From: Amanita rubescens
Taxonomy: Eukaryota > Basidiomycota > Agaricomycetes > Agaricales > Amanitaceae
Reading direction: 5' to 3'
DNA: 64,000 nt
Assembly: GCA_015039365.1 (NCBI GenBank)
Contig: WION01000149.1
Location: forward strand, 59,376 to 123,375
How positions within the stretch are numbered: position 1 is the stretch's first letter; each line of letters opens with the position of its first letter. The position numbers and the translations under genes are program-made. Shown in pieces: positions 2,866 to 47,297 of this stretch. The notes beneath the pieces are model-generated. The model was not told where the DNA came from, searched no databases, and saw only the letters and a program-made list of their open reading frames with translations.

Positions 2866-5073
2866 ATGGCAACTCGGACGATGAATCGTGGGGATACCGT
2901 GCGGCGCCTGGACACCTCGCGACATTCAGCGCAGCGCCATCGTAAAGGGGACGCTGTGCACTCGGCTCTTGGGGCCCCGGATACCTTCCCCTCAGCACAG
3001 CACTATCATGAAACTCCCCCTAGGGATACCTACGAGCGCAATCACGTTGAGATTCCTCCCATTCGACAGCACGCTCCTCAGACTCCTCTCGTTGAACCTT
3101 TAGTGCAACGTGAAGCGGATACTGTGTACTCGGCTCTTGGGGCCCCGGATACCTTCTACTCAGCACAGCACTATCATGAAACTCCTAGGGATACCTACGA
3201 GCGCAATCACGTTGAGATTCCTCCCATTCGACAGCACGCTCCTCAGACTCCTCTCGTTCAACCTGGTGCATGGGATACATTCCACCCAGCCCAGCAACAT
3301 CATGAGACTCCTGTCATTCAACAGCACGCTCCTGAGCACGAGACGCCTCTGATTCCTGGGTCCACCCACTTTGCACCGCACTATCATAATGAGGATCCTG
3401 CAATTCGACAGCATGTTCCAAACATTCCTCCCGGGGATGCCTTCCACTTAGCCCAGCATCATCACGAGACTCCTCTCATTCGATCACAAGCTCAATATAC
3501 ACATGAGCCGTTTGCAAACGCCCACGATTTCATTATGATGAATCCCGTCTTTAACGATATGGGCACATATAATAATTATTCAGACGAGCCAGGTAAATGT
3601 TATTCAAGCGTTTCTATATCGTGCTGATTCAGGGATACACTAGAATTGGACCGTCTTTGGAAGTACATCTCGGCTGATGCGCTTCATGACTCTTTCGCAC
3701 GTTCTCCTCCACCCAGATGTCATCCTGGAACCCGTGAAACCGTTTTACGGAAAATCTACAGTTGGATCGACCAACCAAATCCGCGCCAGCGTATATTATG
3801 GTTGAATGGCCCTGCTGGAGCAGGAAAAACCGCTGTTGCCCAAACTGTCGCAGAGCACTGCAAGGGACACCAACTTGCGGCTTCTTTCTTTTTCAAACGA
3901 AACACCAAGGACCGCGGTGTCGTGGACCGTCTGTTTCTAACGCTGGCGTGGCAGTTGGCGACGTCCATACCCGAAACACGTCCCTACATCGAATCTGCAC
4001 TGAAGGCAGATCGTCTACTCCATACAAAAGCTATCGACGTTCAATTCGATCAACTATTCGTGCAAGTTTTCCGGAAGCTTCTCCGTGACAAGCCTAACAT
4101 ACGTCTAGAGAAAACACTCGTTATAATAGACGGTGTAGACGAATGTGCCCCCGAACGAGACCAGAGGCACTTCCTGAATCTTATCGGGGATGCATTGGCA
4201 CCTGGTGGCATACCACTACATTTTCTGCTTTCCAGTAGATCAGAATTTCAGATCCGGGAAACATTCGATATGGAAAAAATGGGAAACGCAATATTCGCCA
4301 TTGCATTAGACGATACAGTTGCGCCGAATGATGATATTCGAAGATACCTGGAAGATATATTCCTCGACATCTTCACGAAACGTCAGGTTTCACCTCTCCC
4401 AACCGACGCGGATATCGACTACCTAGTCCTAAAAGCATCCGGCCAATTTATTTATGCATCAACGATCGTCAAATTTATCGACGATGACGATTGTAATCCA
4501 AAGGAACAATTAGCCATTATCTTAAAAAACCTAAAGCTCCGTCCCATCAATTTGTCCTCGCCCTATGCACCGCTGGACGAACTCTACATTCAAGTACTTT
4601 CGCAGCAGCGAGACACGAGGCTGTTGAGAGATATCTTTGTACTCATAATTGCCCTCGGTCGACCAGACTGGGTCTTTATTTGTCGACGTTTGCAAGAGAT
4701 TAAGGAAGACTTGGTGATAAAACTACGTCGGCTGTCTTCACTTTTGCAGATTTCGGATTCGGGTATCGAGACCTATCATCAATCATTACACGACTTCTTC
4801 CTGGACAAGAGCCGTGCAGGGAAATACTACATACATCCTGCGAGAGTGGCGTTGGTACGACTACCACGAAACTCTCGTAGGTTTGTGGAAAAAATTTCAA
4901 TTGTTCGGTCAGAAGTCGGAATAATACGTATTGTGCTGGTTGCGGGGCGGCTGTTATTGGCACCATTGTTCATGGTACCAGGTGTATGCATAGGCCTTGT
5001 CTGTGGCTGCAGCGGACGGTGGCAGTTCAGCCCGACCTGTTTATACATCACTTTCTTGTATCCTATCGGCTAG
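2866..5073 (+). CDS. NACHT-domain NTPase (fungal NLR-like)
   Basis: NACHT NTPases of mushrooms are STAND-type switches linked to non-self recognition and programmed cell death. Exon 2866-3592 and exon 3644-5073 join across a 51-nt intron ending CACTAG, with a branch-like GCTGAT upstream, to give about 718 residues. The first ~240 residues are His/Pro-rich and repetitive (PPIRQHAPQTPL twice). The NACHT core follows: WLNGPAGAGKTAVAQT (Walker A, near residue 300), TLVIIDGVDEC (Walker B, near 408) and FLLSSRSE (sensor-like). The arm region ends at YHQSLHDFFLDKSRAGKYYIHP, the usual end of the winged-helix part in this family. No WD40, ankyrin or TPR repeats follow. The last ~70 residues are hydrophobic and do not resemble relatives. 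A +2 frame here reads WYDYHETL, then WKKFQLFGQKSE before a stop, so a frameshift or missed intron near 4845 is possible. The start at 2866 is a choice; 2881 is also possible. Confidence 0.75.
2955..3275 (+). repeat. Two-copy 168-bp direct repeat in the NACHT gene
   Basis: The segment starting at CTCGGCTCTTGGGGCCCC (2961) recurs 168 bp later (3129) with very few changes through GTTGAGATTCCTCCC and CAGCACGCTCCTCAGACTCC. It duplicates about 50 residues of the His/Pro-rich N-terminal region in frame (168 = 56 codons). Looser copies of the CAGCATCATCATGAGACTCC motif continue to about 3480. Near-identity of the two copies points to a recent tandem duplication. Confidence 0.85.
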
Positions 5074-5243
5074 ATAATCTTCTAATTTGTTCAGCTCGGG
5101 GAAAGAGGCGAGAGAAAACTTCTTAATCACCTCATCATTGTACACTTCTGTAGCCAATTCATCCACAATATGTTAACATAGTAAACTACTAGTACAGATT
5201 CACTGTACTCAACTGTACCCTGTATACCCTGAACCCTGGACCC

Positions 5244-8200
5244 TTACTGACTTAGGCCTATATAATTGTTCATAAGTAATGCATGGCTAGATAGAGTACA
5301 TACCATCAATGTGGGTCACCTGTCCATAGAGTAATGTGACAAAATCTTGATAGCCAGAGTATATAAGGTCTGAAGTAATGTCAGTCTTCAACTTCTGAAC
5401 ATAGCCTTTTTGCTTGTATTGATCCAAGGCTTCTGTGACAGATGGCAGAAATGGTTTGTTGATCCAAAAGGATAGCTTGGCAATGATAAGAATTGCTTGA
5501 AGGTGTAAGCATACTAAATACAGTAAATAAAAAGCAGTTATTTACAAACTAGAACCTGGCAATGAGTAGGCTTGTTGCAATGGCATCAGTTATGTACTAG
5601 CCAAGAAAAAACAGAACAAAAATACCTTGACTAAAAAATTCCTTTTCTCATCTCCAAATATGGAGAAAAGTTCATCCTAGTTATGAGGTAGAGCAAAATA
5701 TCACATGTATCACTGTCAGACCTACACACTAGCAGGCAAATTGACATGAAAATCAATACCTCATGAACCAGCATCACTTACCTAGAAATCAAGGAAAGTG
5801 ATATACATAGGTTAGAGGAATGATCACAGGAGGAGGGAATGGGCTGGCTGAAATGAGATCTTACAAACTATGATAATAATGTAAAAGGGAGATATAGAAA
5901 AGACATGCTAACATACTTACTTTCTGATATACATGGATGATAGGATGTAATAATATATCAAACATTCATTAATTGAGGTACACAGGTGAGTCAGGAAATT
6001 GTAATGTCACTCACTTTCTGTTAGTCATAGGAAAAGATGTAATGAGAACTCCTTTCACCAAATGTGCAATGTCACTCACAAACTGTTGGTCATAGGAACA
6101 GATGTGATGAGACTGCCTTTCACAAATTGTGCAATGTCACTCACAAACTGTTGGTCATAGGAAAAGATATGATGAGACTGCCTTTCACAAAATGTGCAAT
6201 GTCACTCACGGGCTGTTGGTTATAGGAAAAGATATAATGAGACTCTGCCTTTCACAAAATGTGCAATATCATCACTCACTCCCTGTTGGCCATAGGAAAA
6301 GATGTGATGAGACTGCATTTCACAAAATGTATTGAATGTCACCCACTTCCTATTGGTCATAGGAGCAGATGTGATGAGACTACCCTTCACAAAATGTGCA
6401 ATGTCACTCACTTCCTGTTGGTCATAGGGGAAAGATGTGATGAGACTGCCTTTCACAAAATGTGCAATGTCACTCACTGCCTGTTGGTCATAGGAAAAGA
6501 TGTGATGAGAATGCCTTTCACAAAATGTGTGTCACACACTCGCTGTTGGTCATAAGAAAAAATGTGACAAGACTGACTTTCACAAATTGTGCAATGTCAC
6601 TCACTCGCTGTTGGTCATAGGAAAAGATGTGATGACACTGACTTTCACAAATTGTGCAATGTCACTCACTTGCTGTTGGTCATATATAGGAAAAGATGCA
6701 ATGAGACTGGCTTTCCAAAATGTGCAATGTCACTCACAATCTGTTGGTCATAGGAAAAGATGTGATGAGACTGCCTTTCACAAAATGTGCCATGTCACTC
6801 ACAAGCTGTTGGTCATAGGAAAAGATGTGATGAGACTGCCTTTCACAAATTCTGCAATGTCACTCACTCGCTGTTGGTCATAGGAAAAGATATGATGAGA
6901 CTGCCTTTCACAAAATGTGCAATGTCACCCACTCCCTGTTGGTCATAGGAAAAGATGTGAGACTCTGCCTTTCACAAAATGTGCAATGTCACTCACAAAC
7001 TGTTGGTCATAGGAAAAGATGTGATGAGACTACCTTTCACAAGATGTCCAATGTCACCCACTTCCTGTTGGTCATAGGGAAATATGTGATGAGACTGCCT
7101 TTCACAAGATGTGCAATGTCACTCACTTCCTGTTGGTCATAGGGAAAAGATGTGATGAGACTGCCTTTCACAAAATGTGCAATGTAACTCACTCGCTGTT
7201 GGTCATAGGAAAAGATGTGATGAGATGCCTCTCAAAAAATGTGCAATGATGTCACCCACTTGCTGTTGGTCATAGGGAAAGATGTGATGAGACTACCTTT
7301 CCCATAAAGTGCAATGTCACCCACTTCCTGTAGCTCATAGGGAAAAAATACTTTTCAGAACTATTTGCAAAGTTACTCACATACTGTTGGCCATAGGCAA
7401 TATTTTCATCTTTTGAACTACTAAACCAGCATGAGATGCTGCTAACCTTCTATGTTGATGAAAAGATGTAATTTCACTGCTTTTGACAAAACCAGCAATA
7501 TCACTCACAATCTGTAGAACAACAGAATGTGTCCACATTGTCCTGTAGCATGAGTGGCCAGCATTACTCACTTCCTTTTGGAGTGGAATTAGCATCATAA
7601 ATTGGGAAAGAAGAAAACAATGCCACTAACTCTCTTTTGTCATTTGAGTATTTTTATTATGAATTCACATCTCACAAAATGATCACATACATCCTGTTTG
7701 TTTTGGTATGGCTGTGAAGCTTTGAAACATATACTTACTGTCTGTTGTTTTGGGACAAGATGTAATGTGTATAAGCAGACAGAAAGGAAATGTCACTTAC
7801 TTTCTGTTATTAATTCAATGAAATTTGTTGAGACTCTCTTTCAAATTATAGTCTGTCACCAACTTTCTGTTCATTGAGTTATGTCTGATAAGTTGCACAA
7901 ACATGGATGTTGCTTACTTTCTTCTGGCAGGTCAGATGTGGTTGAGGCAGTGTTGTATTACTACTCACTCCCTGTCCACAAGAGACTTGATTGACAACTC
8001 TGATTACAATGATAATAACTCACTTGCTATTGATCATATGATGGACCATGGAATCATTCACCAAAAATCAAAATCAAGTCATGTCACCCACTTCCTGTAG
8101 TAGATTATGGGACAAGACTGCTGATCAAGAAAGGAGGTGTTCCTCACAAACTGTTGCCATGAGACAATATATCAGATCTATGCTAGTTCAATGTCACTTA

Positions 8201-9800
8201 CCCACTGATATCAATACCATCAGACCCTGCCACCAAAAATATGTTGATAACTAACCTGTGCTTCACTCAGTTGCTCATTGGCCATCTGAAGCATTACTAA
8301 TCTCATTTTCATATGAAGGCATGGAGTATCACTACATACCTCCTGATCAACTTTTGTAAGTATTTATCATTCCATATGAAGGCCACCTACCTCCCTGTCC
8401 AACTATTGCCATTTCAATTTTCCTATGCTGACAGTTTGCAGTTTGACAGAAATGCATACCCAGAAATGTGGAAATTTTGAAAAAACTTTGGTAATGAGAT
8501 TTTCCCATAGCTGGTTTTTATGCCTCAGAACATGTCTGAACAATGTCAATGATGTTAGTAAGTGACAAAGATGTGAATGTGACCTCACCGAAGTGCAGAT
8601 TTAACACAAAGATCAAGGTTATTCATCTGTGTTGAAACAAACAGCTGATGTATGCTGTCATCATCTATTGCATCACCAGTTTGCTGAGTTAATTCAGCAC
8701 AATTCTTCTCTGGTAAATCCATGTCTATGAACCAACATTACTCCCATTTTTAGAAGGAAATACTCATCATTCTCACCTTCCAATTGCACATATGCCTTGG
8801 GAGGATACTTGGCATTCAAAACTTTAGGAAGATAAACTTTCTGAAAAGTGATTTCAGCAATTTCCCTGGCTCTCTCCCACTTATCTTCATCCTCATCAGT
8901 TAAGTTGACAAATTCATTGGCTACTTGACCATCAAATTTGGTGAATATAACCACCAAAGGAACTGTACAAGACATATTTACTAGTCAGTACTAGTAGGTT
9001 TTGTGGCAAGTTGGCCAATGGAAAAGAAGCAACAACAGCCAAAGGTAAAACAATTTCTCCAAAACCAACAAGTCACAAGATGAGATACAGTTCAATAGGA
9101 CTTACCTCTGCCTGTCCCTTTATTGAAGAATTCAAGCTCTGCAGATAGAATAGGACGAGGGCTGTCCATGGGTATACAGTACCTAGAGGAAGCCAGGTCA
9201 GACAGTACTGTAAAGGGATAAAGCAAAGTACCAAATTGCATGCAGCTGGTTCTTCAGCTCAGTTTTTGCAGACTTCTTTTCAATGAACTTCCAAGCAATC
9301 TCCAATTCCTCAGTTGAACCAGATTCAAAACCCTTAGAGTCATGGAAGATAAAGTTACTTCCAGGGTATGTAATTTGATGCTCAATATCATGCAGGCCTC
9401 TCTATTATCATTGCATGTGAATGGTACATCCATATATCATTATCCAACTCACCTCAAGTGATGGCATCAAATGAATCACAGACTGTTCAAGCTGATTACC
9501 TGCAAGGAATCAACAGTGAAAGGAAGCACAAACTCAGACCGACTTACTGTCACTGTCATATATGATGGGCTTTGTCCCCTTTTCTACACCACAAACTTTC
9601 TCAAGGATGGTTGTCTTGCCTGCATTAGCCCTCCCAATGACAAGAATGCGAAAGTGTGGGCATAGATAGCGCTCCCTGAGCATTTGAACATGTGTCTCAT
9701 CTGTATCTGATATGTGTCAGTCAAGGATTAGCAATGCTGAGTCACATAGTAAATAAACCAGCCTACTACTCAAAGAATGTGCACCAGTTGTGGCTGCCAT
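5244..9800 (-). CDS. Small P-loop GTPase with ~40 single-codon exons
   Basis: Fungal P-loop GTPase of unknown cellular role. Exons, reading down the minus strand: 9800-9770 (ATG), 9706-9548 (G1: VIGRANAGKTT), 9499-9453, 9401-9232 (G3: FIFHDSKG), 9182-9106, 8962-8777 (G4: VVIFTKFD), 8724-8589 and 8535-8460, ending KVFSKFPHFW. All these joins keep phase. The next real exons are 5676-5626 (DELFSIFGDEKRNFLVK), 5596-5556 (YITDAIATSLLIA), 5513-5304 (LQAILIIAKLSFW, later SGYQDFVTLLYGQ) and 5257-5244 (stop). Between 8460 and 5676 lie a 12-nt exon (8402-8391), a 30-nt exon (8285-8256, MANEQLSEAQ) and 40 exons of exactly 3 nt. Every exon length in this block is a multiple of three, so it links two phase-0 ends. 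That makes about 54 exons and roughly 450 residues. One join, 5556 to 5513, is off by one base in my reading and is unresolved. Confidence 0.72.
5726..8342 (-). other. Chain of 3-nt microexons, AG|NNN|GT
   Basis: On the minus strand every unit reads intron...AG, three bases, GT...intron. Plus-strand start of each triplet and the residue it would add, in transcript order: 8340 E, [30-nt exon], 8202 W, 8148 F, 8092 E, 8024 Q, 7969 G, 7918 K, 7864 K, 7801 K, 7739 T, 7691 D, 7631 R, 7572 E, 7509 I, 7447 K, 7381 Y, 7325 E, 7260 Q, 7193 R, 7127 E, 7062 E, 6997 F, 6933 G, 6868 R, 6803 L, 6738 I, 6670 Q, 6605 R, 6540 R, 6478 A, 6412 E, 6347 E, 6280 G, 6210 P, 6145 F, 6080 F, 6015 K, 5921 K, 5865 F, 5726 C. 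Introns run about 45-91 nt. None of the 40 triplets is a stop. At 5781/5782 a bare AG|GTAAGT site with no exon sits in the last long gap, as in a recursive splice site. Units above 7381 keep only the splice signals; those below are near-identical. Confidence 0.65.
6004..7335 (-). repeat. 65-bp tandem array of intron-like units
   Basis: About 21 units spaced mostly 65 bp (range 62-70). Minus-strand consensus of each unit is GTGAGTGACATTGCACATTT, then TGTGAAAGGCAGTCTCATCA, then CATCTTTTCCTATGACCAACAG, followed by a 3-nt variable position. GTGAGT and CAACAG are strong 5' and 3' splice signals, and CTCATC lies about 25 nt before the 3' end as a possible branch site. The unit body is nearly invariant; the triplet is not. 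The period is not a multiple of three and stops interrupt all frames, so read-through coding is excluded. Confidence 0.9.
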
Positions 9801-18093: not shown

Positions 18094-21000
18094 TCATGCG
18101 TAGTCCGACATCCAAGCAGTATGGGGTCCATCTGACAAGCGTTCGAGAGGCCGCATGTGCTGTCTCGTGCTCTGCTCATCGATAGGCAATGGCATGATGA
18201 TGCTGAGCAGGGCCGCAAACTCTTTTGCAATATTTGCTGTGTGCAAGATCCCATACACATCCGGAGAGACACCACGAGCCAATATCGAGTATCGATTGCA
18301 GGAATCAACAGCAAGTCGTGCATCATTGGTCTTTTTCTCTAAGTCTTCGAGAGTATCATTCTGGACGTTCTTTCCTCTGCGATAAGTCTCAAGCTTCTCC
18401 GCAGCCGCTTTCCATGTATCACAAAGGATTCCGAATTCACCGTCAGCAGGGAGTTCTGATGCCGCGCATTTTATCTTCAAGCCATTGTCGTTGTAGCGGG
18501 ATTCATTACCAAGTTCCATGAGTATGACTAGGCGGGGAAGATGTTGGTGGCGATCGCGGTGAACACCAATTGGCCGTATCGCAAGTTCTGCCTGCTTGTC
18601 TTCGGAAACTTTATACTTGACCTGTACCACAACTGCAGAGAGTCGAGAGGGATCAAATTTTGAATCTGGATCGACGGAACCATGATATGAAGGAATTAGA
18701 AAGTCGATTGATTCTTGGGAAAAGAAACATTGAAGTGCTGCGCCACGAGTCCATAGGTTCGCAAGCAGTTCCCTGCGTGTGTACAAATAAGCAGGTCCAC
18801 GTAATGAAGCATTGACCATGTCATACTTACTGTGGTTTCTCAGGGATGGAGTCCTGGGTGCTGATCCAATGCGTAAAATTCACGTGCGCCATGCCAAAGG
18901 CATTGTTAAACTTCGATTGACCAGAACCTGTGAATATGTCTCTTCCGAAAAGTGTATGAAGGAAATAAAGCAGAGGGATAGGTTTCAAGAGATTCCGGCC
19001 ACCACGTGAAGAATGAAGTGGGGCGGCGAAGTCGCGGGCAATGAGGATAAGTATCCGCGCCCCAAGTTCACCCAAAACACCCTTTTCGACGAGTCCCTCG
19101 CCGCATAAATCTCGGCTCAAGGTGTCCAAAACCCGCCGTAGACGGTCCGGTTTTGATGTGTTGTACAATATATCAATACTGCCCATCACGAGGATGGGCT
19201 CTGAAGGCGAGTGTGTGTAGGATGTGTCATCGTTGGTTGAGATCCCAGTGAGAATCCTCATGTGATGCGCAACACTGTGATCTCCGAGTTTTATAGCTTC
19301 TGAAGCACCTGGGGCTGGTTCTAGACAGAGACGCTGTGAGAGTACAGCAAAGACGTGGTCCTTATCTGTGGCTCTAAAAGGCTCCCCATTTCGAAGTTGC
19401 CACGAAGCCAAAGAGATTATCTCGCCTGGTGTTTCTTCAGGTAGAAGTGCACTCCACCTGGTAACTAAATGAGTAGCTGTGGTTTACAGGCGAGATCTAC
19501 GTACATTGGCCTTCCATATTGAGAGATGGACTCGATGGTTTGCATGTCACCCATACTTACGCTTACTTGGGCATTGCTCGTAGCTATCGCTCGTTGGTCA
19601 AAGCCAAGATCAAAATAGGGTGTTAATAATCGAGCCACCTCCGATATGAGTTGCAAACCAGACACTATTGCTTCAATCAGGTATGTGCAAGCAAGCGAAG
19701 CGCAGACTGACGGTTGGTGGGACGAGGGCCATAATAGGATGTGCTCGATTTCGTTGCTATGAAGGTGTACCACATTCTTGTTCGTAGCTGATGCTCCACG
19801 AGAGGCAGAAGAATCCAAAAGTGCGAATCCAATTTGTGTGCTTCGTCGAAATACATTACGCTTATCCTTTTCGCGGGAAGAACAGTGGAAAGAAATTCCG
19901 TCAGTTTATTGATGGCCTCCTTGGCGTAGAGCTCGTAAATCTTGCGAGACATTGTAAAATGTTCAAAAGAGTCGGGGGGTACAGGCTTGCCGTCCTTCGC
20001 TCTGGTAGGATTGTCTTGGGAGGCTTCCACGTCCGATTTCATCTGCCAATATGCTAAGAGCGCTCAACCGAAAGAAAAATGAAACAACTGACCGATTCTG
20101 CTCGTTCGACCACTTTTGTAAAAAACTCTTCTCGGCGATCACGCGCCCCGGTTGGCTCCATAAGCCCATGCCAATACTCGAGTAACTGTGGTCCATCGAG
20201 CCCCTTCTCCTTGCATGCCTCTTGTAGCGTTTCAAGCATCGTTTGATGTGCAGCAGCAAGGAAACAAGCAATGGCAATATACGTGGTGAGGATCAAATTG
20301 TCAGTTTGGGGCAACGCGGAAAAGAACTTCACAACGGGCTTGTCCCCAGGTGGATACCCTGGATCAGTGGACTTGCGAAGACAGATCGGAAGCGCGAAGA
20401 TCTGTTTACCAACCTAGCGGAAATTTGTAGCGTGGCATTGCCAACCGAAACACGGACACACCTCTGTTAGCATGCGCGATTTGCCTGTTCCGGAACTTTG
20501 AACCACGAATATAACTTTAGCTTTGAGAGGTCTCCCAATGCTCCCTTGATGATAAATATCTGCGTGTTCGAGATGCTTGATGAACTCTGTGGCAGAATCT
20601 CCAATGAATTGTTGCGTGTATGCCTTGCCGAGTCCTTTGAGAAATGAGTCAGTGGTCGATCAGATCAGCTGAGCAATCGTACTTTTATCGTGGAGGCTAG
20701 TGTATCGCGCATAAGTATAAAAGGAGAGATAAAGCAAAACGAAGCTTGCATGTTCTCAGCTTGTCCATCGACAAAGAGATCTTCGGCTGGTCTCTGAAGT
20801 TTCGCTGTGCCAGTACCAAATTAAAGTATATCGTCCTCGGGAGCAAGCAAGGCACATACGATGCGTAATCAGGCCCTCCCAATCTCCTTTCTGTACTATA
20901 CTCTTCCATTCCTCGGCCTCGTCGTCATTCAGGCTCTCTACAAGCTCATCAATAGCCTCGAAGCTTGAAAGGTCGATAACTTTCTTTTTCAGAGCCGTCT

Positions 21001-21178
21001 GCGACACTATCCTACAGTAAGAAGAAATAACCGAAAATAACACATTTTGCAGTTCTCCTTTGTCACTTCCAGCGCTGCTTAAGCGACCTGACCAACCCTT
21101 GCGTTTTGAGGCCTGAATCATATGCGTCTTGAACTCGTCCACTAGAGCCTGCATTAGGGGGAGCGAGGAAGAGGACAT
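18094..21178 (-). CDS. CRN-like P-loop NTPase / PD-(D/E)XK protein, copy 1
   Basis: Multi-exon gene of the eukaryotic CRN-type class: a STAND-like P-loop NTPase fused to a restriction-endonuclease-fold domain. Order on the minus strand: N-terminal helical exon from ATG 21,178 (MSSSSLPLMQALVDEF), Walker A QSSGTGKSRMLTE (about 20,480), LPICLRKST, ACFLAAAHQTMLETLQEA, Walker B ISVMYFDEAHKLDSHF (about 19,830), FAVLSQRLCLEP (19,330) and DILYNTSKPDRLRRVLDTL. A last exon begins near 18,790 with the nuclease-like core TRRELLANLWTRGAALQC, SIDFLIPSYHG and AVVVQVKYK. Asp in SIDF and the Q-x-K pair fit a PD-(D/E)XK site. The end is cut short: after SDYA the stop comes about 15 residues earlier than in copies 2 and 3 because of a small deletion near 18,095. 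The upstream start used by copy 2 has also been lost. Whether it is an effector, an immune or a transposon-derived protein cannot be told from sequence. Confidence 0.75.
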
Positions 21179-21364
21179 GGGAAATATCCCTGGAAATAGG
21201 GGGCATCTCGTTGTTAGTAACCGCGCTTTGTCAGCGTGTAGAGACGGCACGTGCTGCAATACCTGCATCCGAGAGCTCATCCGAGTCCCCCTCCGGAAGC
21301 CTAAGAACTCCTCCACATCTCCTTGCTAACCGCCCTACAGAATCGGAATCAGCACGCCATTCAC

Positions 21365-21700
21365 TTACCCACATATTGTCAAACCTACAACGCATCGTAC
21401 ACAAATTATGTGGGGATGAACGATCTTCCCCTCATTTTCATCACCTTCCCGGTTCCCATCTTCCCATTTCCGTTCCTTTTCCTCCTCCTCACCCATTAGC
21501 CAACCCATGTCCGTTCGCCGAACGAACGTCATCCACACAAATCCCTTCACAAACTCAATTGTAGCGTCCACCAGAGCCTCCTCCAACCTTCCGGGCTCGA
21601 CAAATAACTTTTGGAAAGGCGGAGTGTAAATCAACATCTGCAACACGGCATTGGCAAAACATTATTGACCAATCCGCGAGGTCGCATTTGTTGCAGTGGC
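21365..21700 (-). pseudogene. Ubiquitin hydrolase fragment (USP10/Ubp3-like)
   Basis: The minus strand reads CFANAVLQMLIYTPPFQKLF and then GRLEEALVDATIEFVKGFV. This resembles the Cys-box and first helix of the USP catalytic domain (normally GN-x-C-F-A-N). The bases just before the Cys codon are out of frame (an in-frame TAA precedes TGT), and no Asp/His boxes follow downstream. It is a broken fragment of a deubiquitinase gene. Possible upstream remains extend to about 22,800 (a minus-strand open frame with a His/Gln run at 22,490-22,520), but I cannot confirm that they belong to it. Nothing else is supported between 21,700 and 22,960. Confidence 0.5.
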
Positions 21701-23036
21701 AGCTAAACTCCCACCACCGTTCAAAGAGCGATCAAATCGGCTTTGTTCTTTTCGTGTGCGGTGGTACCCGATGAAGATGGCTCGCCGGACATGTACTCGT
21801 GACTGGGAATAGAGGGATAGATATCCCTACGACATTTGATGTCGGGAGGCGTCCCTCTTTGATCCAGAGGCGGACGACGAAGAGTCGGAAGATTTAAGGA
21901 GGAATACCCATGGTTTTTGGGGCGGGACAGGGGAAAGCAGAGTGGTGGTCGTTGCAGTAGATGTAGAGGCTGCCGTTGTGGAGTGCGGAGGTAGTCAAGG
22001 CAGTGCCAGTCGTGGTTGATGTAACCGATTCTTCGTCCAAGATCTCTTCGGCCCCTTTGAGTGGCATCGTACCATTACATACCAGCGACGGCGGACAGAG
22101 GGACATAAGTAGTGGATGTTGCCGGGGACCCAGACACTGGAAGACGTCAAATTGTCTATAACAAAAGTAGCTGAAGAAGGAACGGTTGACAAGTCTGCTG
22201 CGGCAGCAGGCGCCGCGCGACTTGCGGCATGCCGTTTCGCTCTGTCTCGTTTCCGTTTTCCTCGTGCCTTTCCTCTTCAACCACTGCTGTACCCGGTCCT
22301 TTCCTTCGATACTGGCCATTTCTTCGTCAGCCGAACCACATCCGGCGGTGGATGCGCTTGGATAGGTATAATGAATGTTCTGTAGGACATCGGGACCATA
22401 TAGCCCGCGACGATTTTAGCTTTTGCGTTGGCGGTTGCAGTTGAATCTACGTCCTTCTGATGTTCGGGATCTGCGGGCTGCCCCTGCTGGTGTTGGTGTT
22501 GGTGTTGGTGCTGCGGTCGGTGATAAACTGAGGATGTGAAATCGACTCGGCGGATGGCGAAGAGTTTGAGGATTTGAGCAGCGTTTCCCGTGATTTTATC
22601 CAGGTGTGGAAGAAGATACAACTGGGGCGTAAATCGAGTGGTTATTAAAATCTTTTTTTCCCGTCGTTTCGTCGCCCGTTTTGACTGGTAGCAGTCGATG
22701 ACGTGAACTAAGCGGTAGTTGTGGCGGTGACAGGTGGACCGTGGACCATTTTCACGTTCGCGTTCGATATCTGTGGTGGACGCGTCGGCGGAAGGGAACA
22801 TATTTTACTTCAGGAATTTCTCGTCTGAGACGGTGCTGACTCAGACTGAGAGCGGGAGGAGTGGAGAACGTGGAAAAGAGCACGAGGATGTTTGTAGTCG
22901 ATGCCACATTGCCCGACAATGCATGCCACTGGAGCAGAGACAGTTCGATTTTTTTAAATAAAACAGTTACAGGAAAGTATTTACACACTACCACAACCTA
23001 ACTAGCCTCATTACATCGGCTTCCGGGTTGTCAGTA

Positions 23037-26000
23037 TTATGAATCAACATGAGCATCGACATCTTCATTCGGCACAGCGTAGTCCGACATCCAAGCAGTA
23101 TGGGGTCCATCTGACAAGCGTTCAAAAGGCCGCATGTGCTGTCTCGCGCGTTCATCGCCAGGCGACTCTGGCATGATATTACGGAGCAGGGTCCCAAACT
23201 CATTTTCAATTTTTGCTTTGCCCAAGATGCCATACACATACGGAGAGGCACCACGAACCGATATCGAGTATTGATTGCAGAAATTAACAGCAAGTCGTGC
23301 ATCGTTAGTCTTTTTCTCCAAGTCTTCGAGGGTATCCTTCTGGATGTTCTTTTCCCTGCGATAAGTTTCAAGCTTCTCCGCAGCCGCATTCCATGTATCA
23401 CAAAGGATTCCGAATTCACCATCAGCAGTGGGCTCTGGTGCCACGAATTTTATGTCCGAGTCTCTGTCGCCATAGCGGGATCCATCACCAAGTGCCATGA
23501 GTATGACTAAGTAGGGAAGAGGTTGATGACGATCACGGGTAACACCAACTGGACGTATTGCAAGTTTGTCTCCGGCAACTTTATTCTTGACCTGTACCAC
23601 AACTACAGAGAATTGAGAGGGATCAAATTTTGAATCCAGACTGATGGAACCATGATATAAAGGAATTAGAAGGTCGATTGATTCTTGGGAATAGCAACAT
23701 TGAAGCGCTGCGCCACGAGCCCATAAGTTTGCAAGCAGTTCCCTGCGTGTATACAAATAAGTAGGTCTACGAAAAGAAGTGTTTACTATGTCATACTCAC
23801 AGATCCAGTTTCTCGGGGGTGGGATCCCGGGTGCTGATCCAATGCGTGAAATTCACGTGCGCCTTGCAAATGTTGTCAAACTTCAGTTGTTCGGAATAGA
23901 TGAATGTGTCTTTTCCGAAAAGTGTATGAAGGAAATACAGCAGAAGGATGGGCTTCGGGGAATTCTGGCCACATGAAAATGCGGCGGCGAAGTCGCGGGC
24001 AATGAGGAGAAGTGTGCGCGCACCAAGTTCGCCCAAAATACCCTTTTCGATGAGTCCCGCGCCGCATAGATCTCGGCTCAAGGTGTCCAAAACCTGCCGT
24101 AGACGGTCCGCCGGTCGTGACGTGTTATACAATATATCAATACTGGCCATCGCGAGGATGGGCTCTGAAGGCGCGTGCGTGTAGAATCTGTCTTTGCCTG
24201 TCGAGAAGCCGGTGAGAAGCCTCATGTGATGCGCAACACTGCGTTCCGCGAGTCCTATAGCTTCTGGAGCAGCTAGTACCGGATCTAGACAGAGACGCTG
24301 TGAAAGTACAGCAAAGACATGATCCTTATCACTGTCATTGAAATTCCTCCCATTTAGAAGTTTCAAAGAAGCCAAATCGATCATCTCGCCCAGTATTACT
24401 TCAGGCAGATGTGCACTCCACCTGGTAACGAAATGAGCAACTGCGCTTTACAGACGAGGCCTACGTACATTGGCCTTCCATATTGAGAGATAAACTCGAT
24501 GGTTTGCATGTCACCCATACGTACGCTTACTGCCCTGCTATTGGCTATCGCTTGCTGGTCAAAGCCAAGATCAATATAGTAGGGTGGTAATAATCGAGCC
24601 AACTCCGGTTTGGGTCGCAAAGAAACTATTCTTCAGTCAAACATGTCATGCAAGCAAGCGAAGCGACAAACTGACACTTGTTGTCAGGAGGTGCATTATA
24701 GGAGATGCTCGATTTCGTTCCCATGAAGGTGTACCACATTTTTGTTGACGAAAGCTGACGCTGCACGAGACGCAGAAAGATCCGAAGGTGCGAACCCAAT
24801 TCGGGTGCTTCATCGAAGTACATTACGCTTATTCTTTTCGTGGGAAGGACATCGGAAAGAAATTTCATCAGTCTCTTGGTGGCATCCTCAGCATGGAGTT
24901 CGTAACACTGTTGGAAATCGGCGGGTGCCTCGCCGTTCTTCGGATTGTTTTGAAAGGTATCCTTTGCCAATTTCATCTGCCGATATGTTCAGAGCGCTCA
25001 GCCGAAAGAAAAAGAACGACTGACTAAGCTGTCTGCTTGTTCGACCACTTTTGTAAAAAACTTTTCTCGGCGATCACGCGGCCCAGTTGGCTCCATAAGC
25101 CTATGCCAATACCCGAGTAAATGCGGTCCATTGAGCCCCTTTTTGTGTGCCTCCTGCAGGGTTTCAAGCATCGTTTGATGTGCAGCAGCGAGGAAGCAAG
25201 CAATGGCAGTATGCGCATTGGTGTCGCTATTTCCGGGTAACGCGGAAAAGAATTTCACAACGGATTTGTCCCCAGGTGGATAGCCTGGATCATTAGACTG
25301 GCGAAGGCAGATCGGAAGCGTGAATATCTGTTTACCAACCTAGCGGAAATTGTAGCGTAGCATTGCGAACAGAAACATGTACGCACCTCTGTTAGCATGC
25401 GTGATTTCCCTGTTCCAGAACCTTGAACCACGGAGATGGCTTTAGCGTAGAGAGGTTTCTCCTTGTTCGTTTCCTGCTCAATATCAGCCTGTTCGAGATG
25501 CTTGATAAACTTTGTAGCAGAATCTCCAACGAAGTGTTGTGCATATGCCTTGCCGAGTCCTTTGAGAAATGAGTCAATCGTCAATCAGGTTAGCGGAGCA
25601 TCGGTACTTTTATTATCGTAGAGACTAGGAGTGCATGGCGCGTAAGTATAAAAGGAGAAATTAGAAAAATTAAGCTTACATGTCATTAGCTCGTGTATAG
25701 ACAGAGCGATCTCCAGCTGGTTTCTGAAGTTTCGCTGTGACAGTACCAAATTAAATATATCGTCCTCGAAGCGAGCAAAGAACATACGATACGTAATCAG
25801 GCCCACCCAATCCCCTTTCTGTACTATGCTCTTCCATTCCTCGACCTCGTCGTCATTCAAGCTGTCTATAAACTCATCAATAGACTGGGACCCTGAAAGG
25901 TCAATAACGTTCTTTTGCAGAGCCGTCTGCGACACTATCCACCAGTAATTTAAAAGAACCGAAAAAAACACTTCTTGCAACTCTTCATTGTCACTTCCAG

Positions 26001-26175
26001 CCCTGATTAAGCGACGTGACCAATGTTCGCGTTTTGAGGCCCGCATCATCTGCGTCTTGAACTCGTCCACTAGGGCCTGCGATACTGGGGGGAGCGAGGA
26101 CATAAGAGAAGATTGAGAAATATCCCTGGAAATAGGAGGGTGAGGGGTGGGGGCATCAACATCCATGTCCGACAT
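23037..26175 (-). CDS. CRN-like P-loop NTPase / PD-(D/E)XK protein, copy 2
   Basis: Same domain order as its neighbours but clearly the most diverged copy. The start at 26,175 (MSDMDVDAPTPHPPIS) gives about 20 more N-terminal residues than copy 1. Walker A is VVQGSGTGKSRMLTEV (about 25,430), Walker B is ISVMYFDEAPELGSHL (about 24,830), and FAVLSQRLCLDPV and DILYNTSRPADRLRQVL follow. The nuclease-like core is SIDLLIPLYHG and VVVVQVKNKV (about 23,600). Note DEAP in place of the DEAH of the other copies. It ends with NEDVDAHVDS. The glycine-rich Walker A (QGSG) matches what is usual in this class better than the QSSG of copies 1 and 3. All exons look intact. Confidence 0.75.
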
Positions 26176-26550
26176 CGTTGTAACTCAGAGTCTCAGACTA
26201 AGTCGCCTTGCCCGCGCTCAACCGCTTTGTCAGCGGCGCGTCCGCAGACACAGCACGTGCTGCGAACCCCAACCTTGGTTCCGATTATAACCGAGTAGAA
26301 TCGCGACCTTTTGATTAATCATTACAGTGATATCTTGTCCTTTCCGGAATCCTATCCCAGCACTCAAAAATTTTTGCCACTGAATTTGTGCAATCAGTCC
26401 GTTAATTTCTATGGAGACAGGTTTTATTCTTTGTCTTTACGCGATACAGTGACAACGCTATGCATGATGTAGCGATGACATCGTGAATATATCCTAGTAG
26501 CATCAACGATTCCAGCGCGGAAAACTAGCTTTCCCTCGGCTTCCGGGTTG
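26176..26550. other. Spacer between tandem copies 2 and 3
   Basis: Holds the 5' flank of copy 2 (a GCTTTGTCAGCG...CACGTGCTGC block shared with the copy 1 flank at about 21,220) and the 3' flank of copy 3. No separate gene is supported. Confidence 0.5.
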
Positions 26551-29500
26551 TCAGTATGCCATAAATCGACGATCAACAGCATCACCATCTTCGTTCGGCA
26601 CAACGTAGTCCGACATCCAAGCCGTATGGGGTCCATCTGACAAGCGTTCGAGAGGCCGCATATGCTGTCTCGTGCTCTGCTCATCGACAGGCAATGGCAT
26701 GATGATACTGAGTAAGGCCGCAAACTCTTTCGCAATATTTGCTGTGTGCAAGATCCCATACACTTCCGGAGAGACACCACGAGCCAATATCGAGTATCGA
26801 TTGCAGGAATCAACAGCAAGTCGTGCATCATTAGTCTTTTTCTTTAAGTCTTCGAGAGTATCATTCTGGATGTTCTTTCCCCGGCGATAAGTTTCAAGCT
26901 TCTCCGCAGCCGCTTTCCATGTATCATAAAGGATTCCGAATTCACCGTCAGCAGGGGGTTCTGATACCGCGCATTTTACCTTCAAGCCATTGTCGCTGTA
27001 GCGGGATTCATTACCAAGTTCCATGAGTATGACTAGGTGGGGAAGATGGTGTCGATTGCGGTGAACACCAATTGGCCGTATCGCAAGTTCGGCCTGCTTG
27101 TCTTCGGAAACTTTATACTTGACCTGTACCACAACTGCGGAGAGTCGAGAGGGATCAAATTTTGAATCTGAATCGACGGAACCATGATATGAAGGAATTA
27201 GAAAGTCGATTGATTCTTGGGAAAAGAAACATTGAAGTGCTGCGCCACGAGTCCATAGGTTCGCAAGCAGTTCCCTGCGTGTGTACAAATAAGCAGGTCC
27301 ACGTAATGAAGCGTTGACCATGTCATACTTACTGGTTCGGTTTCTCAGGGATGGAGTCCTGGATGCTGATCCAATGCGTAAAATTCACGTGCACCATGCC
27401 AAAGGCATTGTTAAATTTCGATTGATCGGAACCTGTGAATATGTCTCTTCCGAAAAGTGTATGAAGGAAATAAAGCAGAGGGATAGGTTTCAAGAGATTC
27501 CGGCCACCACGTGAAGAATGAAGTGGGGCGGCGAAGTCGCGGGCAATGAGGATAAGTATCCGCGCCCCAAGTTCACCCAAAACACCCTTTTCGACGAGTC
27601 CCTCGCCGCATAGATCTCGGCTCAAGGTGTCCAAAACCCGCCGTAGACGGTCCGGTTTTGATGTGTTGTACAATATATCAATAGTGCCCATCACGAGGAT
27701 GGGCTCTGAAGGCGAGTGCGTGTAGGATGTGTCATCGTTGGTTGAGATCCCAGTGAGAATCCTCATGTGATGCGCAACACTGTGATCTCCGAGTTTTATA
27801 GCTTCCGAAGCACCTGGGACTGGTTCTAGACAGAGACGCTGTGAGAGTACAGCAAAGACGTGGTCCTTATCTGTGGCTCTAAAAGGCTCCCCATTTCGAA
27901 GTTGCCACGAAGCCAAAGAGATTATCTCGCCTGGTGTTTCTTCAGGTAGAAGTGCACTCCACCTGGTAACTAAATGAGTAGCTGTGGTTTACAGGCGAGA
28001 TCTACGTACATTAACCTTCCATATTGAGAGATGAACTTGATGGTTTGCATGTCACCCATACTTACGCTTACTTGCGCATTGCTCGTGGCTATCGCTCGTT
28101 GGTCAAAGCCAAGATCAAAATAGGGTGTTAATAATCGAGCCACCTCCGATATGAGTTGCAAACCAGACACTATTGCTTCAATCAGATATGTGCAAGCAAG
28201 CGAAGCGCAGACTGACTGTTGCCAGTGGGACGAGGGCCATAATAGGATGTGCTCGATTTCGTTGCTATGAAGGTGTACCACATTCTTGTTCGTAGCTGAT
28301 GCTGCACGAAACGCAGAAGAATCCAAAAGTGCGAATCCAATTTGTGTGCTTCGTCGAAATACATCACGCTTATCCTTTTCGCGGGAAGAACACCGGAAAG
28401 AAATTCCGTCAGTTTGTTGATGGCCTCTTTGGCGTGGAGCTCGTAGATCTTGCGAGACATTGTAAAAGGTTCAAAAGAGTCGGGGGGTACAGGCTTGCCG
28501 TCCTTCGCTCTGGTAGGATTGTCTTGGGACGCTTCCACGTCCGATTTCATCTGCCAAGATGCTAAGAGCGCTCAGCCGAAAGAGAAATGAAACAACTGAC
28601 CGATTCTGCTCGTTCGACCACTTTTGTAAAAAACTCTTCTCGGCGATCACGCGCCCCGGTTGGCTCCATAAGCCCATGCCAATACTCGAGTAATTGTGGT
28701 CCATCGAGCCCCTTCTCCTTGCATGCCTCTTGTAGCGTTTCAAGCATCGTTTGATGTGCAGCAGCAAGGAAGCAAGCAATGGCAATATACGTGGTGAGGA
28801 TTAAATTGTCAGTTTTGGGCAACTCGGAAAAGAACTTCACAACGGGCTTGTCCCCAGGCGGATACCCTGGATCAGTGGACTTGCGAAGACAGATCGGAAG
28901 CGCGAAGATCTGTTTACCAACCTAGCGGAGATTTGTAGCGTGGCATTGCTAACCAAAACACGGACACACCTCTGTTAGCATGCGCGATTTGCCTGTTCCA
29001 GAACTTTGAACCACGAATATAACTTTAGCTTTGAGAGGTCTCCCATTGCTCCCTTGATGATTAATATCTGCGTGTTCGAGATGCTTGATGAACTCTGTGG
29101 CAGAATCACCAATGAATTCTTGCATGTATGCCTTGCCGAGTCCTTTGAGAAATGAGTCGGTTGTCGATCAGGTTAGCTGAGCAATCGTACTTTTATCGTG
29201 GAGACTAGGAGTGTATGGCGCATAAGTATAAAAGGAGAGATAAAGCAAAACGAAGCTTGCATATTCTCAGTTTGTCCATTGACAAAGAGATCTTCGGCTG
29301 GTCTCTGAATTTTCGCTGTGCCAGCACCAAATCACAATATATCGTCTTCGGGAGCGAGCAAGGCACATACGATGCGTAATCAGGCCCTCCCAATCTCCTT
29401 TCTGTACTATACTCTTCCATTCCTCGAACTCGTCATCATTCAAGCTCTCTACAAGCTCATCAATATCCTTAAGCGTCGAAAGGTCGATAACGTTCTTTTG

Positions 29501-36448: not shown

Positions 36449-39400
36449 ATGAACTTCGTCAACCGGCATGGAAAATGCAAATGCGATTGCCTCAAGTATT
36501 GCAAAGGTGGAAAACTTGTTTGTTACGAAACCCATCGAAGGCACAAGCCCTATCGAAAAGCTGATCAGGATGCAGCAATCCAGAGGGTGTTACAGCAGAT
36601 TGGCCCGCTTACAATGACGAATAGCTCGAGAGCGAGCAACGAAAAAACGGTGCGTATTATTGGATGTATACTCTACTGCTCTAAGCTAATGATTCTCTCA
36701 GAAGGTTGCGGGGAAATATCGTGCCCCCAAGGGGCCATGTTCAACACGACGCGCTAATAAGGACTGCGAACCTACCACACATTTCGACGATCCCTCGACT
36801 CCGAGTCAAGTTGACCGCGACAAGGACTTGGACTTCCCACCTCCAGTGTCGCCATCGCGTGGAATGAGCCCCATGGATTACATTGACGAACCTATCACTC
36901 ATTTCGACGATCCCTCGAGTCTTGAGTGCGATGTGGACTCCTCTCTCATGGCCTCATCTTCACGAGCAGCAAATATTGACAATAGAGATGAAATCATCCC
37001 GGATCTCAACCCTCCCGAGGATGGCTTACCAGGTCACAGGATGAACAATCACCAAATGGATTTCTCCGACGAGATGGACTCGGAACCACCATTTTTTCAA
37101 GAGGGCGAAGATTTTGTAACATATAATGGCAATGACGATGAGGGTCACGGGGATGGAGTAGGGGGGAATAGTGACGGCGGCGGCGAGGATGACGCAAGGG
37201 AGAATAATGGCAATGACAACGGTGAAGACGGTATAGGGGACGGCAATGATGACGACGGCGAGAATGGTGTAGGGGATGATGGCAACGACGATGAGGGCGA
37301 ATCTGTTGATGATGAATACGACGTCAATGGCATGTCCACCAATATCGACGATGAAATTGAATTCGATATTCGACAAACGAGATCATCTTGCGACAGACTG
37401 ACGCGATCCCAGGAGATGATCGACGCTATCCGAGATGCCCGCTTCAAGGATGACATGGACGACGCAATGATTTCTCGAATGATGAATCCGCCCCGCTCTC
37501 AACCGAATATCACCTATTCGAAACAAATATCTATTAGGGTCTTCGACGAGCTTCGTAATGGCTCACAAGAGATGTACAATGGGATCAGGAAAATCATGGC
37601 GGACCTCCACCCACCCATTCTCCTCGATTCTCACCACATTGTCAAGAAATCTGTGAAGGAAATTACCGGCGTCGAACACATTGAAACTGACATGTGTCCA
37701 AATAGTTGCATAGCGTACACGGGGCCCTTCTCCACCCTAGAGGAATGCCCTTATTGTGCTGAACCACGATACACCCAACCTAGTACGTCAAGGAAACGCA
37801 CCGCTCGGCGACGCTTCTCTACGATCCCGCTTGGACCACAGCTTCAAGCCATGTATAGGTCACCCGAGAGCGCCGACCGCATGAACTACCGCGCGCGAAA
37901 GACGAAAGAAATCATTGATAAGATTCAGCGGAACGGTGGCAAAATTGACATTACTGAATACGAGGATTTCGTGCATGGCCAGGACTATATTGAGGCCGTT
38001 CTAAGAGGCGACATTAAGGAGAATGATGTCGTCTGTGCGCTCTCCATCGATGGTGCGCAGCTCTATCGTGATAAAGAATCGGAGTGCTGGTTCTTTATTT
38101 GGATCATTCTCGATCTCAGCCCGGACCTACGTTATAAAAAAAAGTTCATTCTCCCCGCCGGTTTTGTCCCGGGTCCAACCAAGCCGAAGAACATGGAATC
38201 GTTCTTGCTGCCGAGCCTTCGCCACTTCTCGGCCTTGCAGAAACACGGACTCCCTGTATGGAATGCACGGCGGGATCAAGATATCAATGTTTGTCCATTT
38301 TGGCTGTTTGGAACAGCTGATACTCCTGCCTTGCCTATTCTGAGTGGACTGGTGGGACATGGAGGACGGCTCGGATGTCGTATTTTCTGCGGGGTCCCAG
38401 GGCGGTTAAAGGGTAAAAAGTACTACCCTGCTGCGCTTAAGCCCGACAGGTACAACATCATGGGATCTTCTCATGACGATGTCGATGTTATCAACCTACC
38501 ATCTCCCAGCGTTTCTAAGTATAACAAGGCACTTGTCGAGCTCCTTCAGGCTACGGATGCAAACTACGAACTAGGCCTTCAACCAAATGGGATGCTGCCG
38601 GTACCACGTTGCTTCCCACTTGACATAATGCATCTTTCGTGCCTAAACGTAACCCAACACCTTCTACAGATATGGCGAAATACTATTAACCCAAAGGTTC
38701 CGTCAGACTATGATTTTACTCCCTTAAGCTCGGAACGCGTGTGGAATGAGCATGGAGCTCTCGTGGCATCAGCTACCCCATATCTCCCCTCCTCATTCAA
38801 TCGAACCCCTCGTAATCCCGCGCTGAAATTGACTTCGGGGTACAAGGCATGGGAGTTTATGATATACATCTGGGTCCTAGGTCCCGCGGTTTTCCGGCTT
38901 GTTCTTCCGGACGATCTATGGTCCCACTTCTGCAAGCTGGTCTGCGGAATTCGGATAATCAATCAAAGACGGATCTCATCAGAACAGCTGGCACACGCTC
39001 ATAAGATGATAGTAGAGTGGGAAATGGAGTTTGAATTGAACTACTATCAAAGGAAAGCAGAACTTCTTCATCTGATACGCCCAAGTACACATGCCATTCT
39101 CCACGCGGCGCGAGAAACACATCGATGCGGCCCACTGAATCTCGTAGCGCAATGGGCACTGGAGAATACCGTCGGAAATCTCGGCCGCGAAATACATCAA
39201 CACTCCAACCCATTTTCGAACTTGTCTCAACGTGGCTTGCTACGTGCCCAAATGAACGCACTCTACTCGATTATCCCCGCTCTCAACCCTGCCAAGAAGA
39301 TATCTGAGATAGACGAACCATTAGGGGACCAGTACATCCTATTACATGCGAGAGAATATGTGATGCGATTGCCGCAAGTGGAGGAAGCAGCCGTGAGACG

Positions 39401-40002
39401 ATATCTCACCAAGTGCAACCATCATCTTGCTGCAGGTACCAGTTTCACACTGCGCAAATGGGCGCGTGTACAACTCCCGAATGGTCAAATAGCGCGATCT
39501 GCATGGCAAGAGAAGGAAGAAGAGAAGAAGAAGTATTATAGGAATTCTCGTAATATCAAAGTGCGTCCCATTATTTCGCGCCGTTTTTATGCTAACCGAG
39601 TAGTAGTATAACTTAAATAATCAGGTCGACTTCGCAGAAGTACAGTATTTCTTCCAAGTGCTAGTTAACGTCAACAACAAACTGGTCAAGTTGGCAGCGG
39701 GCGCAATGATCCGAACTTATTCGGATCCTGATCCTGATCTCCTCGCCAGCTCACACGAGACCCTCCGTGTATGTAGGTTTCGAGAAGATGATTTAAGCAT
39801 TATAGACATCAAGACCATCCAAACGGTTGTCGGAATGATACCTTTCCCATTAAAGACTGAAGAGGAGAAGAAGCCGGAACTCAGAGCCAAATTCCACGAC
39901 TGCTTCTACGTCGCAGAGAAGCCGTTCTTCGAGCTTACCATTGAAGGAATCGGAGAATCTGGAACAGAAGAGAATGGAGGATCCAGTGACTCGGAGGCAT
40001 GA
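36449..40002 (+). CDS. CMC-superfamily transposase (Tnp2/Plavaka-like)
   Basis: Three exons (36449-36649, 36702-39560, 39625-40002) join in phase to about 1,145 residues. The N-terminus is a Cys-rich finger (CKCDCLKYCKGGKLVCYE), followed by a long acidic Asp/Gly/Asn region (37,080-37,360). The catalytic core has the features of mushroom Tnp2/Plavaka transposases: VVCALSIDGAQLY (first Asp), SECWFFIWIILDLSPD, FLPSLRHFSALQKHGL-like block at 38,200, ILSGLVGHGGRLGCRIFCGV, CFPLDIMHLSCLNV (D-x-x-H), WEFMIYIWVLGPAVF and RCGPLNLVAQWALENTVG. The C-terminal domain reads FAEVQYFFQVLV and RTYSDPDPDLLASSHETLRV. No stop or frameshift was seen, so the gene may be recently active. Transposases of this class cut and paste DNA using terminal inverted repeats. 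Confidence 0.85.
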
Positions 40003-47160: not shown

Positions 47161-47297
47161 ATCACTGTTCATTTTTGTAATGGACAGTTAAGAGCCAGTA
47201 ATTACCAAGATGTGGCTTGCCATGCAGGAGCAAACACAGCCTTACCTTGGCCTTGGCCACATGCTGCATGAAGTGGCGGCCCATACAGGCCAAGTAA

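Follow-up and report, generated by a model that had tools for sequence, protein, structure and literature searches.

In a 64,000-nucleotide stretch of Amanita rubescens DNA (the window, which ends at base 123,375 of contig C56), a minus-strand gene belongs to a GTPase family in which the segment between the GTPase and C-terminal parts is very probably encoded by an array of one-codon exons that are joined in order. The curated gene model has 53 exons and 52 introns, all of them GT-AG, in one frame of 461 codons plus a stop. Its array, at 8342-5726, comprises 40 one-codon exons, each flanked by AG and GT and none of them a stop, and the only other exons here are one of 12 nucleotides (nt), LDRE, just upstream of the array, and one of 30 nt, MANEQLSEAQ, after the first codon. 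An earlier note on this DNA had drawn about 40 AG|NNN|GT units at exact 3-nt spacing inside a P-loop GTPase gene, with flanking exons in phase 0, no stop among the triplets and 23 of the 40 encoding E, K, R, Q or D. These points are borne out by the curated model, in which a single 461-codon frame runs from the P-loop exon to the C-terminal stop, the upstream exon ends and the downstream exon starts in phase 0, and the same count of 23/40 is obtained. Beyond what that note had claimed, the array is a feature of a gene family, and in its young copies the codons vary far more than the introns. The parts of the gene are as follows.

9800-9770, minus strand: candidate first exon of 31 nt, MAATTGAHSLN, recognised by eye only; the JGI protein P0003 has AHSLN near its start.
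9548..9706, minus strand: ordinary exon with the P-loop GRANAGKTT.
9499-9453, 9401-9232, 9182-9106, 8962-8777, 8724-8589 and 8535-8460, minus strand: six more ordinary exons of the GTPase part.
8391..8402, minus strand: 12-nt exon TTGGACAGGGAG (LDRE); the same place holds VGRD in P0045 and VDRA in P0003.
8340..8342, minus strand: one-codon exon no. 1, GAG (E), placed by hand.
8256..8285, minus strand: 30-nt exon MANEQLSEAQ, placed by hand; P0045 has MANKQLSEAQ.
7381..8204, minus strand: mostly conserved zone of 15 one-codon exons, W F E Q G K K K T D R E I K Y, starting at 8204, 8150, 8094, 8026, 7971, 7920, 7866, 7803, 7741, 7693, 7633, 7574, 7511, 7449 and 7383.
5726..7327, minus strand: hypervariable zone of 24 one-codon exons (EQREEFGRLIQRRAEEGPFFKKFC), starting at 7327, 7262, 7195, 7129, 7064, 6999, 6935, 6870, 6805, 6740, 6672, 6607, 6542, 6480, 6414, 6349, 6282, 6212, 6147, 6082, 6017, 5923, 5867 and 5728.
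5996..7346, minus strand: 65-bp tandem repeat of 20.6 copies, the unit being one intron plus one codon.
5781..5782, minus strand: zero-length site AG|GTAAGT, which resembles a ratchet point and lies between F 5867 and C 5728.
5041..5676, minus strand: C-terminal exons 5676-5626 (DELFSIFGDEKRNFLVK), 5570-5546, 5495-5304 and 5147-5041 plus the stop; P0033, P0039 and P0050 align here.

Four elements of the curated model were placed by hand, namely GAG 8342, the 30-nt exon, AAG 7449 and TTT 5867. The last ordinary exon of the GTPase part, 8535-8460, ends KFPHFW in phase 0. The exons of this part agree with the public model P0002, a hypothetical protein of Amanita rubescens that corresponds to the window gene, ends at CVKSALR and stops before the array. 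That public models of the GTPase family stop short would follow from the array, since annotation does not place 3-nt exons. The model P0068 covers 92% of the spliced protein, and among the best 120 of 2152 listed matches the other NCBI-named models cover at most 64%. With regard to domain assignment, Pfam PF01926 (MMR_HSR1) scores 16.1-20.7 bits in five relatives, under the cut-off of 21.9, with the P-loop present; some other family members are labelled MMR_HSR1 (PF01926) in the source table, and profile matches to PDB are weak (best E 4e-4).

The exactness of the spacing is evident from direct counts. On the minus strand of 8600-5500, AG-N3-GTRRG occurs 34 times, while gaps of 0, 1, 2, 4, 5, 6, 7 and 8 bases between AG and GTRRG occur 2, 0, 0, 1, 0, 1, 0 and 0 times, respectively. 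The looser pattern AGNNNGT has 81 matches in the same interval, counting overlapping ones, whereas 500 dinucleotide shuffles gave 13.7 +/- 3.6 (maximum 26). A chain search of the window that used splice-site preferences alone, allowed exons of 0-40 nt and ignored frame chose 3 nt for 37 of its 42 exons, the rest being three of 0 nt, one of 12 and one of 17; it missed the four elements later placed by hand. An equivalent search of 65 family loci (L009-L073, overlapping and with haplotypes included), in which exon length was free over 0-30 nt, chose 1118 exons, of which 1010 are 3 nt long and none of these 1010 is a stop, and the opposite strand gave 91 exons, 7 of them of 3 nt. The array caller misses a few exons (it finds 36 of the 40 in the window) and merges some as 6- or 9-nt calls. 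The divergent copy L073, 77% identical in the exon, has strongly diverged introns (diversity, pi, 0.506 over 19 units), and in the part searched each of the 41 exons chosen freely has a length divisible by three (3 nt in 35, 6 nt in four, 9 nt in one and 15 nt in one), with 8 low-scoring exons on the opposite strand. In L083, the most divergent copy read, the pattern is partial: 7 exons were called, 6 of them multiples of three and one of them 12 nt long, and by eye one-codon exons are mixed with longer in-frame exons.

Whether the triplets are joined can be judged from proteins that appear to be free of introns. Seven JGI proteins (P0003, P0021, P0033, P0039, P0045, P0050 and P0057), on contigs of 1.4-1.9 kb, are uninterrupted across the intron sites of the window gene and beyond FPHxW; since their frames run unbroken where the window gene has introns, they probably derive from transcripts. 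P0045 reads W-VGRD-E-MANKQLSEAQ-WFEHGKKDTDKQIVYD where the spliced window gene is predicted to read W-LDRE-E-MANEQLSEAQ-WFEQGKKKTDREIKYE, in a gapless alignment, and P0003 aligns similarly, with one residue fewer ahead of the NEQLSE part. In the 16 codons that follow MANEQLSEAQ, the predicted residue agrees with P0003 at 11/16 and with P0045 at 10/16, against shuffled means of 2.0 and 1.55 (P <= 5e-6 by triplet shuffling). P0033 and P0039 run on into REILPELFSVFG, the counterpart of KKFCDELFSIFG in the window, and P0050 into a close form, so that these three match the window gene on either side of the variable segment. P0085 ends ahead of FPHxW, and P0089, P0104 and P0118 are more distant, with other sequence there. 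A profile search with the spliced protein found mainly the same proteins again, and a region search for spliced homologues gave no match. The codon-by-codon splicing that the earlier note had suggested is supported by P0003 and P0045, and more weakly by P0021, in which these residues recur in unchanged order, by a first-zone triplet order that is common to paralogues, and by a frame that runs through the C-terminal exons to the stop. Splicing of the one-codon exons is, in sum, well supported.

Between copies, the array is for the most part conserved at its 5’ end and hypervariable in its 3’ part. In an alignment of 22 copies (L011, L015, L016, L021, L024, L029, L033 and L038 were left out of 30 as near-duplicate or unsuitable), the W, F and G codons are present in all 22, and the first codon is GAG in 17, GTG in 4 and TAG in 1. 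Mean identity is highest in splice-site columns (0.943), followed by the one-codon columns (0.869), the long exons (0.858) and intron interiors (0.801). Past the Y codon, little codon sequence is common to the arrays.

The codons themselves form an unusual set. No stop is found among the 464 codons of nine arrays; in these, codons of the form NAA and NGA begin with A in 32 cases, C in 90, G in 140 and T in none, even though a single transition would turn CGA into TGA or CAA into TAA. The young arrays use 19 codons, of which CGA, GGA, GAA, TTT, GAT, CAA and CTT make up 139/161. Arginine is encoded by CGA in 38/38 cases in the young arrays, in 1/13 in the ordinary exons of the window gene and in 5/40 in an exon of 19 paralogues. 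The third base is A or T in 90% of the codons of young arrays and in 96% of those of old ones, versus 62-66% in ordinary exons. This codon choice, unlike that of ordinary exons, favours a pool of units over a ready-made exon into which introns were inserted. In L045 and L046, a CTA codon and the G that follows form TAG, and an acceptor four bases on could read TGA instead; CTA is rare in arrays, with none listed among the 464 codons.

The array is not confined to the window gene. The exon encoding VPLVV..QLE has at least 150 genome matches (best 150 of 255 candidates, haplotypes included), and the downstream exon at least 150 (best 150 of 219). An array reading WFEQGK..D.I.Y or a variant of it lies within 1.5 kb at 29 of the 30 upstream loci, and an array is present at all 30 downstream loci. 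The thirtieth upstream locus, L033, was considered as a copy without an array and rejected as such, as its array starts farther downstream, in L069. Together with regions fetched later, these 60 loci represent some 50 gene copies, haplotypes being counted apart, and two divergent copies were sampled; because a single assembly holds the haplotype copies, the family counts lack independence. Assembly error may affect long identical arrays, though separate contigs agree. Among arrays read to both ends, the number of called exons is 42 in C604, 49 in C254, 50 in C769, 50 in C228b, 71 in C1, 83 in C667 and 84 in C79. A zero-length AG|GTRAGT near the array end is present in 15 of the 37 loci scanned (10 distinct), including L073 and L083; the other 22, where it was not found, may be without it or may not fit the exon pattern applied. 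A further dense series of AGNNNGTAAG sites, with up to 37 one-codon candidates in L008, occurs at C1:31425-34156 (G000); no GTPase exon is tied to it, and it could represent either one more member of the family or a different gene.

The most telling property of the young arrays is that their introns are identical where their codons differ. In C79, 41 of 83 introns are one and the same 62-mer, as are 21-25 introns each in C769, C604, C254, C228b and C228, and the 62-mer is identical among the four arrays compared; among the matches listed, a part of 376, all contigs other than C12 are ones that also bear the GTPase family. Across eight arrays with identical introns, equivalent to about four independent ones, per-site diversity between units is 0.009-0.040 in introns and 0.31-0.70 in codons. 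In the older arrays (window, C1, C340, C209 and C328) intron diversity reaches 0.108-0.506 and codon diversity 0.45-0.77. Identical introns are shared by 835 pairs of units within C79, and the codon differs in 668 of these pairs, at all three bases in 364.

Related loci were compared as well. In the 21 of 24 pairs that exceed 97% identity, 35 of 1101 codon bases are changed versus 112 of 24,209 intron bases; some of these pairs overlap, and 6 of the 35 codon changes are a one-unit insertion or deletion (indel) read in register. The codon differences of L062/L063 are such a one-unit indel. L049 and L050 differ at 8/1015 intron bases and at 24/51 codon bases, 14 of 17 codons being different. A shift of units was rejected as the cause, since the codon edit distance with unit shifts allowed is 12, versus a shuffled mean of 12.2. 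After the array the same two loci differ at 9/297 bases, and in the next exon stretch at 8/355, both above the array introns. Between the alleles C769 and C228b, ATC GGA stands against CGA CGA with the adjoining introns unchanged, one of them with a shared marker base. A single CGA unit and two intron variants distinguish the alleles C79 and C667, and C1 and C170 show 0/213 codon differences and 7/4821 intron differences.

These results suggest a cassette array in which a single codon would be the unit of variation. The spliceosome would join the one-codon exons in order, 40 of them here and about 42 to 84 in other full arrays. Splicing is probably stepwise, each step uncovering the next 5’ splice site, and thus recursive with one codon gained per step, because spliceosomes on either side of a 3-nt exon would be expected to collide; the zero-length AG|GTRAGT near the array end fits such stepwise splicing. 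Fungal introns are short and recognised as units, and therefore a 3-nt exon is possible in principle. As each cassette consists of one intron and one codon, its gain, loss or exchange would leave the frame intact, near-identical introns could serve as homology arms for exchange by gene conversion or unequal crossing-over, and selection would keep the codons diverse and stop-free. Because the segment is so variable, a role in the recognition of self, of a partner or of a parasite can be guessed at. The fuller proposal, a genome-wide pool of cassettes, swapped by way of identical introns, that yields new recognition segments in the GTPases one codon at a time through dozens of recursive splicing steps, is put forward tentatively and has somewhat less than an even chance of being correct. 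If true, dozens of consecutive one-codon exons would mark the lower limit of exon organisation and place a hard, directly testable demand on the spliceosome, and introns would be the spacers that allow a protein to be varied safely, one residue at a time.

Several observations weigh against this account, both of the splicing and of the variation. The splice-site weights used in the searches were derived from ordinary introns and from the window array itself. The reversed-sequence control of the family search yielded 558 exons, 365 of 16 nt and 7 of 3 nt, and because it peaks at 16 nt, regular spacing can come from a repeat alone; the 3-nt peak appears on the forward strand only, and forward scores exceed reversed-sequence scores. 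The TAG first codon of one of the 22 aligned copies was not located by direct look. Third codon positions are the most conserved (0.934 vs 0.822 and 0.850), the reverse of ordinary coding DNA, which may reflect splicing. Among the JGI proteins, P0021 matches 7/16 conserved-zone codons (P 3e-4), P0039 and P0050 5/16 each and P0033 4/16, weak support for the register, and without the leading WF the matches of P0033 and P0050 are not significant. P0057 has no WF motif, and P0017, P0062, P0063, P0094 and P0095 depart from the alignment at or soon after FPHxW and have none either. P0003 and P0045 are unmatched past the conserved zone, and no match was found in them for the hypervariable half of the window array; the joining is read from DNA and from proteins of other sequences rather than from RNA of the window gene. 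With regard to variation, 11 of the 21 close pairs have no codon change, and where introns are older the codons change no faster (0/48 codon bases vs 36/943 intron bases in L047/L048, 1/51 vs 25/1023 in L059/L064 and 1/42 vs 24/873 in L028/L029). The excess of codon change is confined to young arrays. Linkage between intron variants and neighbouring codons, the expectation under an exchange of units, is weak, with 3 of 14 tests below 0.05 and none after correction. Finally, C254 (L080) carries a 4-nt unit, CTTC, before CGA CTA CTA units where its relatives have CTT, and this would shift the frame, unless the copy is broken or misassembled, as it may be.

Among the alternatives, the one that survives best accepts that the one-codon exons are spliced and proposes that they are skipped at will, giving many in-frame isoforms per gene, as in the schistosome micro-exon genes. 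All exons are symmetric and therefore any subset stays in frame, but P0003 and P0045 include the 16 conserved codons without a gap, few transcripts bear on the remaining codons, and skipping of this kind appears unlikely. Deliberate mutation of the codons with the introns spared, as by a diversity-generating element, would account for the replacement of whole codons between the alleles C769 and C228b with unchanged introns and for the unrelated codon series within the near-identical introns of L049/L050; the small codon set fits the exchange of existing units better, which makes targeted mutation a good deal less likely than skipping. Slightly less credible again is plain tandem duplication, in which intron-codon units were copied side by side and then changed by point mutation and drift. 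The 65-bp repeat, the single-unit indel between alleles and the adjacent identical codons (57 observed vs 39.6 expected in eight arrays taken together; the window is the only array below 0.05 by itself, at P 0.03) are in its favour, but units with identical introns mostly differ in their codon, at all three bases in 364 of the 835 C79 pairs. Codons that differ at three bases between identical introns cannot be explained by one mutation rate, and duplication was rejected as the sole source of the arrays.

A burst of introners, in which copies of one intron were inserted at each codon boundary of a ready-made exon, would account for identical introns beside varied codons, and identical 62-nt introns do occur in arrays of several contigs. 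Insertion gives no reason for a 3-nt spacing in phase 0, though, and the A/T excess at third bases and the nearly constant use of CGA for arginine are unlike ordinary exons; on spacing and codon set together, insertion into a ready-made exon was rejected and is considered very improbable. Least probable of all, and hardly credible, is one long intron at 8459-5677 that merely contains an intron-like tandem repeat whose triplets are never joined: P0002 does stop ahead of the array, P0068 does go from FPHYW almost straight to the C-terminal part, and a 65-bp repeat does cover part of the stretch, with the reversed control showing that repeats alone space regularly, if at 16 nt, but the residues are present in P0003 and P0045, the 464 codons of nine arrays hold no stop, and in L073 all 41 freely chosen exons are multiples of three despite diverged introns.

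In the neighbourhood of the gene, a convergent gene on the plus strand (window 3646-5073) encodes an NLR-like NACHT/NPHP3_N NTPase (PF24883, 99.8 bits; PF05729, 33.8 bits), and its frame shares 33 bases with the end of the GTPase gene. A NACHT/NLR gene as a common partner of the family was considered and rejected, the motif being found in 2 of 84 sources, both of them the window locus, in a set in which most loci reach only 1.5 kb past the exon. Elsewhere in the window there are a long open frame with a Transposase_21 (tnp2) match of 34.4 bits (36828-39611, plus strand), paired open frames in three related blocks that look like tandem copies within an unnamed family (18094-27916, minus strand), and tandem repeats at 47297-47751 (periods 31-78 bp), 53280-53531 (27-64) and 55495-55882 (60-119).

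With regard to known systems, no mention of consecutive one-codon exons was found in the material retrieved from the open PubMed Central (PMC) literature, to which the search was limited. Taken alone, the array structure would be a variant of the microexon gene, and it is the codon variation between identical introns that has no counterpart in the open PMC literature searched. Exons of 1-3 nt can be spliced (PMC4674806, PMC8831610, PMC7392893), including a constitutive 1-nt exon reported in Arabidopsis APC11 (PMC4674806). In the literature searched, the APC11 exon and the 3-nt microexons are isolated or paired, whereas those of Amanita form long arrays. The micro-exon genes of schistosomes carry most of their coding region in very small symmetrical exons and encode variable proteins (PMC4350168). 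The array segment shares this architecture, but its exons are exactly one codon long and stand about 40-84 in a row, its introns can be identical, and its variation lies in the DNA between genes and alleles. The bicycle genes of aphids encode a fast-evolving protein family and contain many microexons (one gene has more than 100), and nearly all of their internal exons are in phase 2 (PMC9168663). The fast evolution and the many microexons are common to both families; the phase differs, and the passages on bicycle genes describe no intron-codon cassettes. Aphid bicycle exons are well above one codon in size. Introner-like elements place near-identical introns in many positions (PMC9860276, PMC4457414). 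They are spread over many genes, whereas the Amanita introns were found 3 nt apart in one family and accompany an unusual codon set; the ordinary codon usage that insertion into existing coding sequence would leave around the introns is not seen in the arrays. Zero-length sites are also known as the ratchet points of recursive splicing (PMC8605326). The AG|GTRAGT site kept in several copies resembles them, but the ratchet points described lie inside long introns, and here each step would add a codon. In fungal NLR and heterokaryon-incompatibility proteins, a hypervariable segment is believed to persist through exchange among repeats that are nearly identical. The unit exchanged there is a protein repeat of tens of residues, and in the Amanita arrays it would be a single codon.

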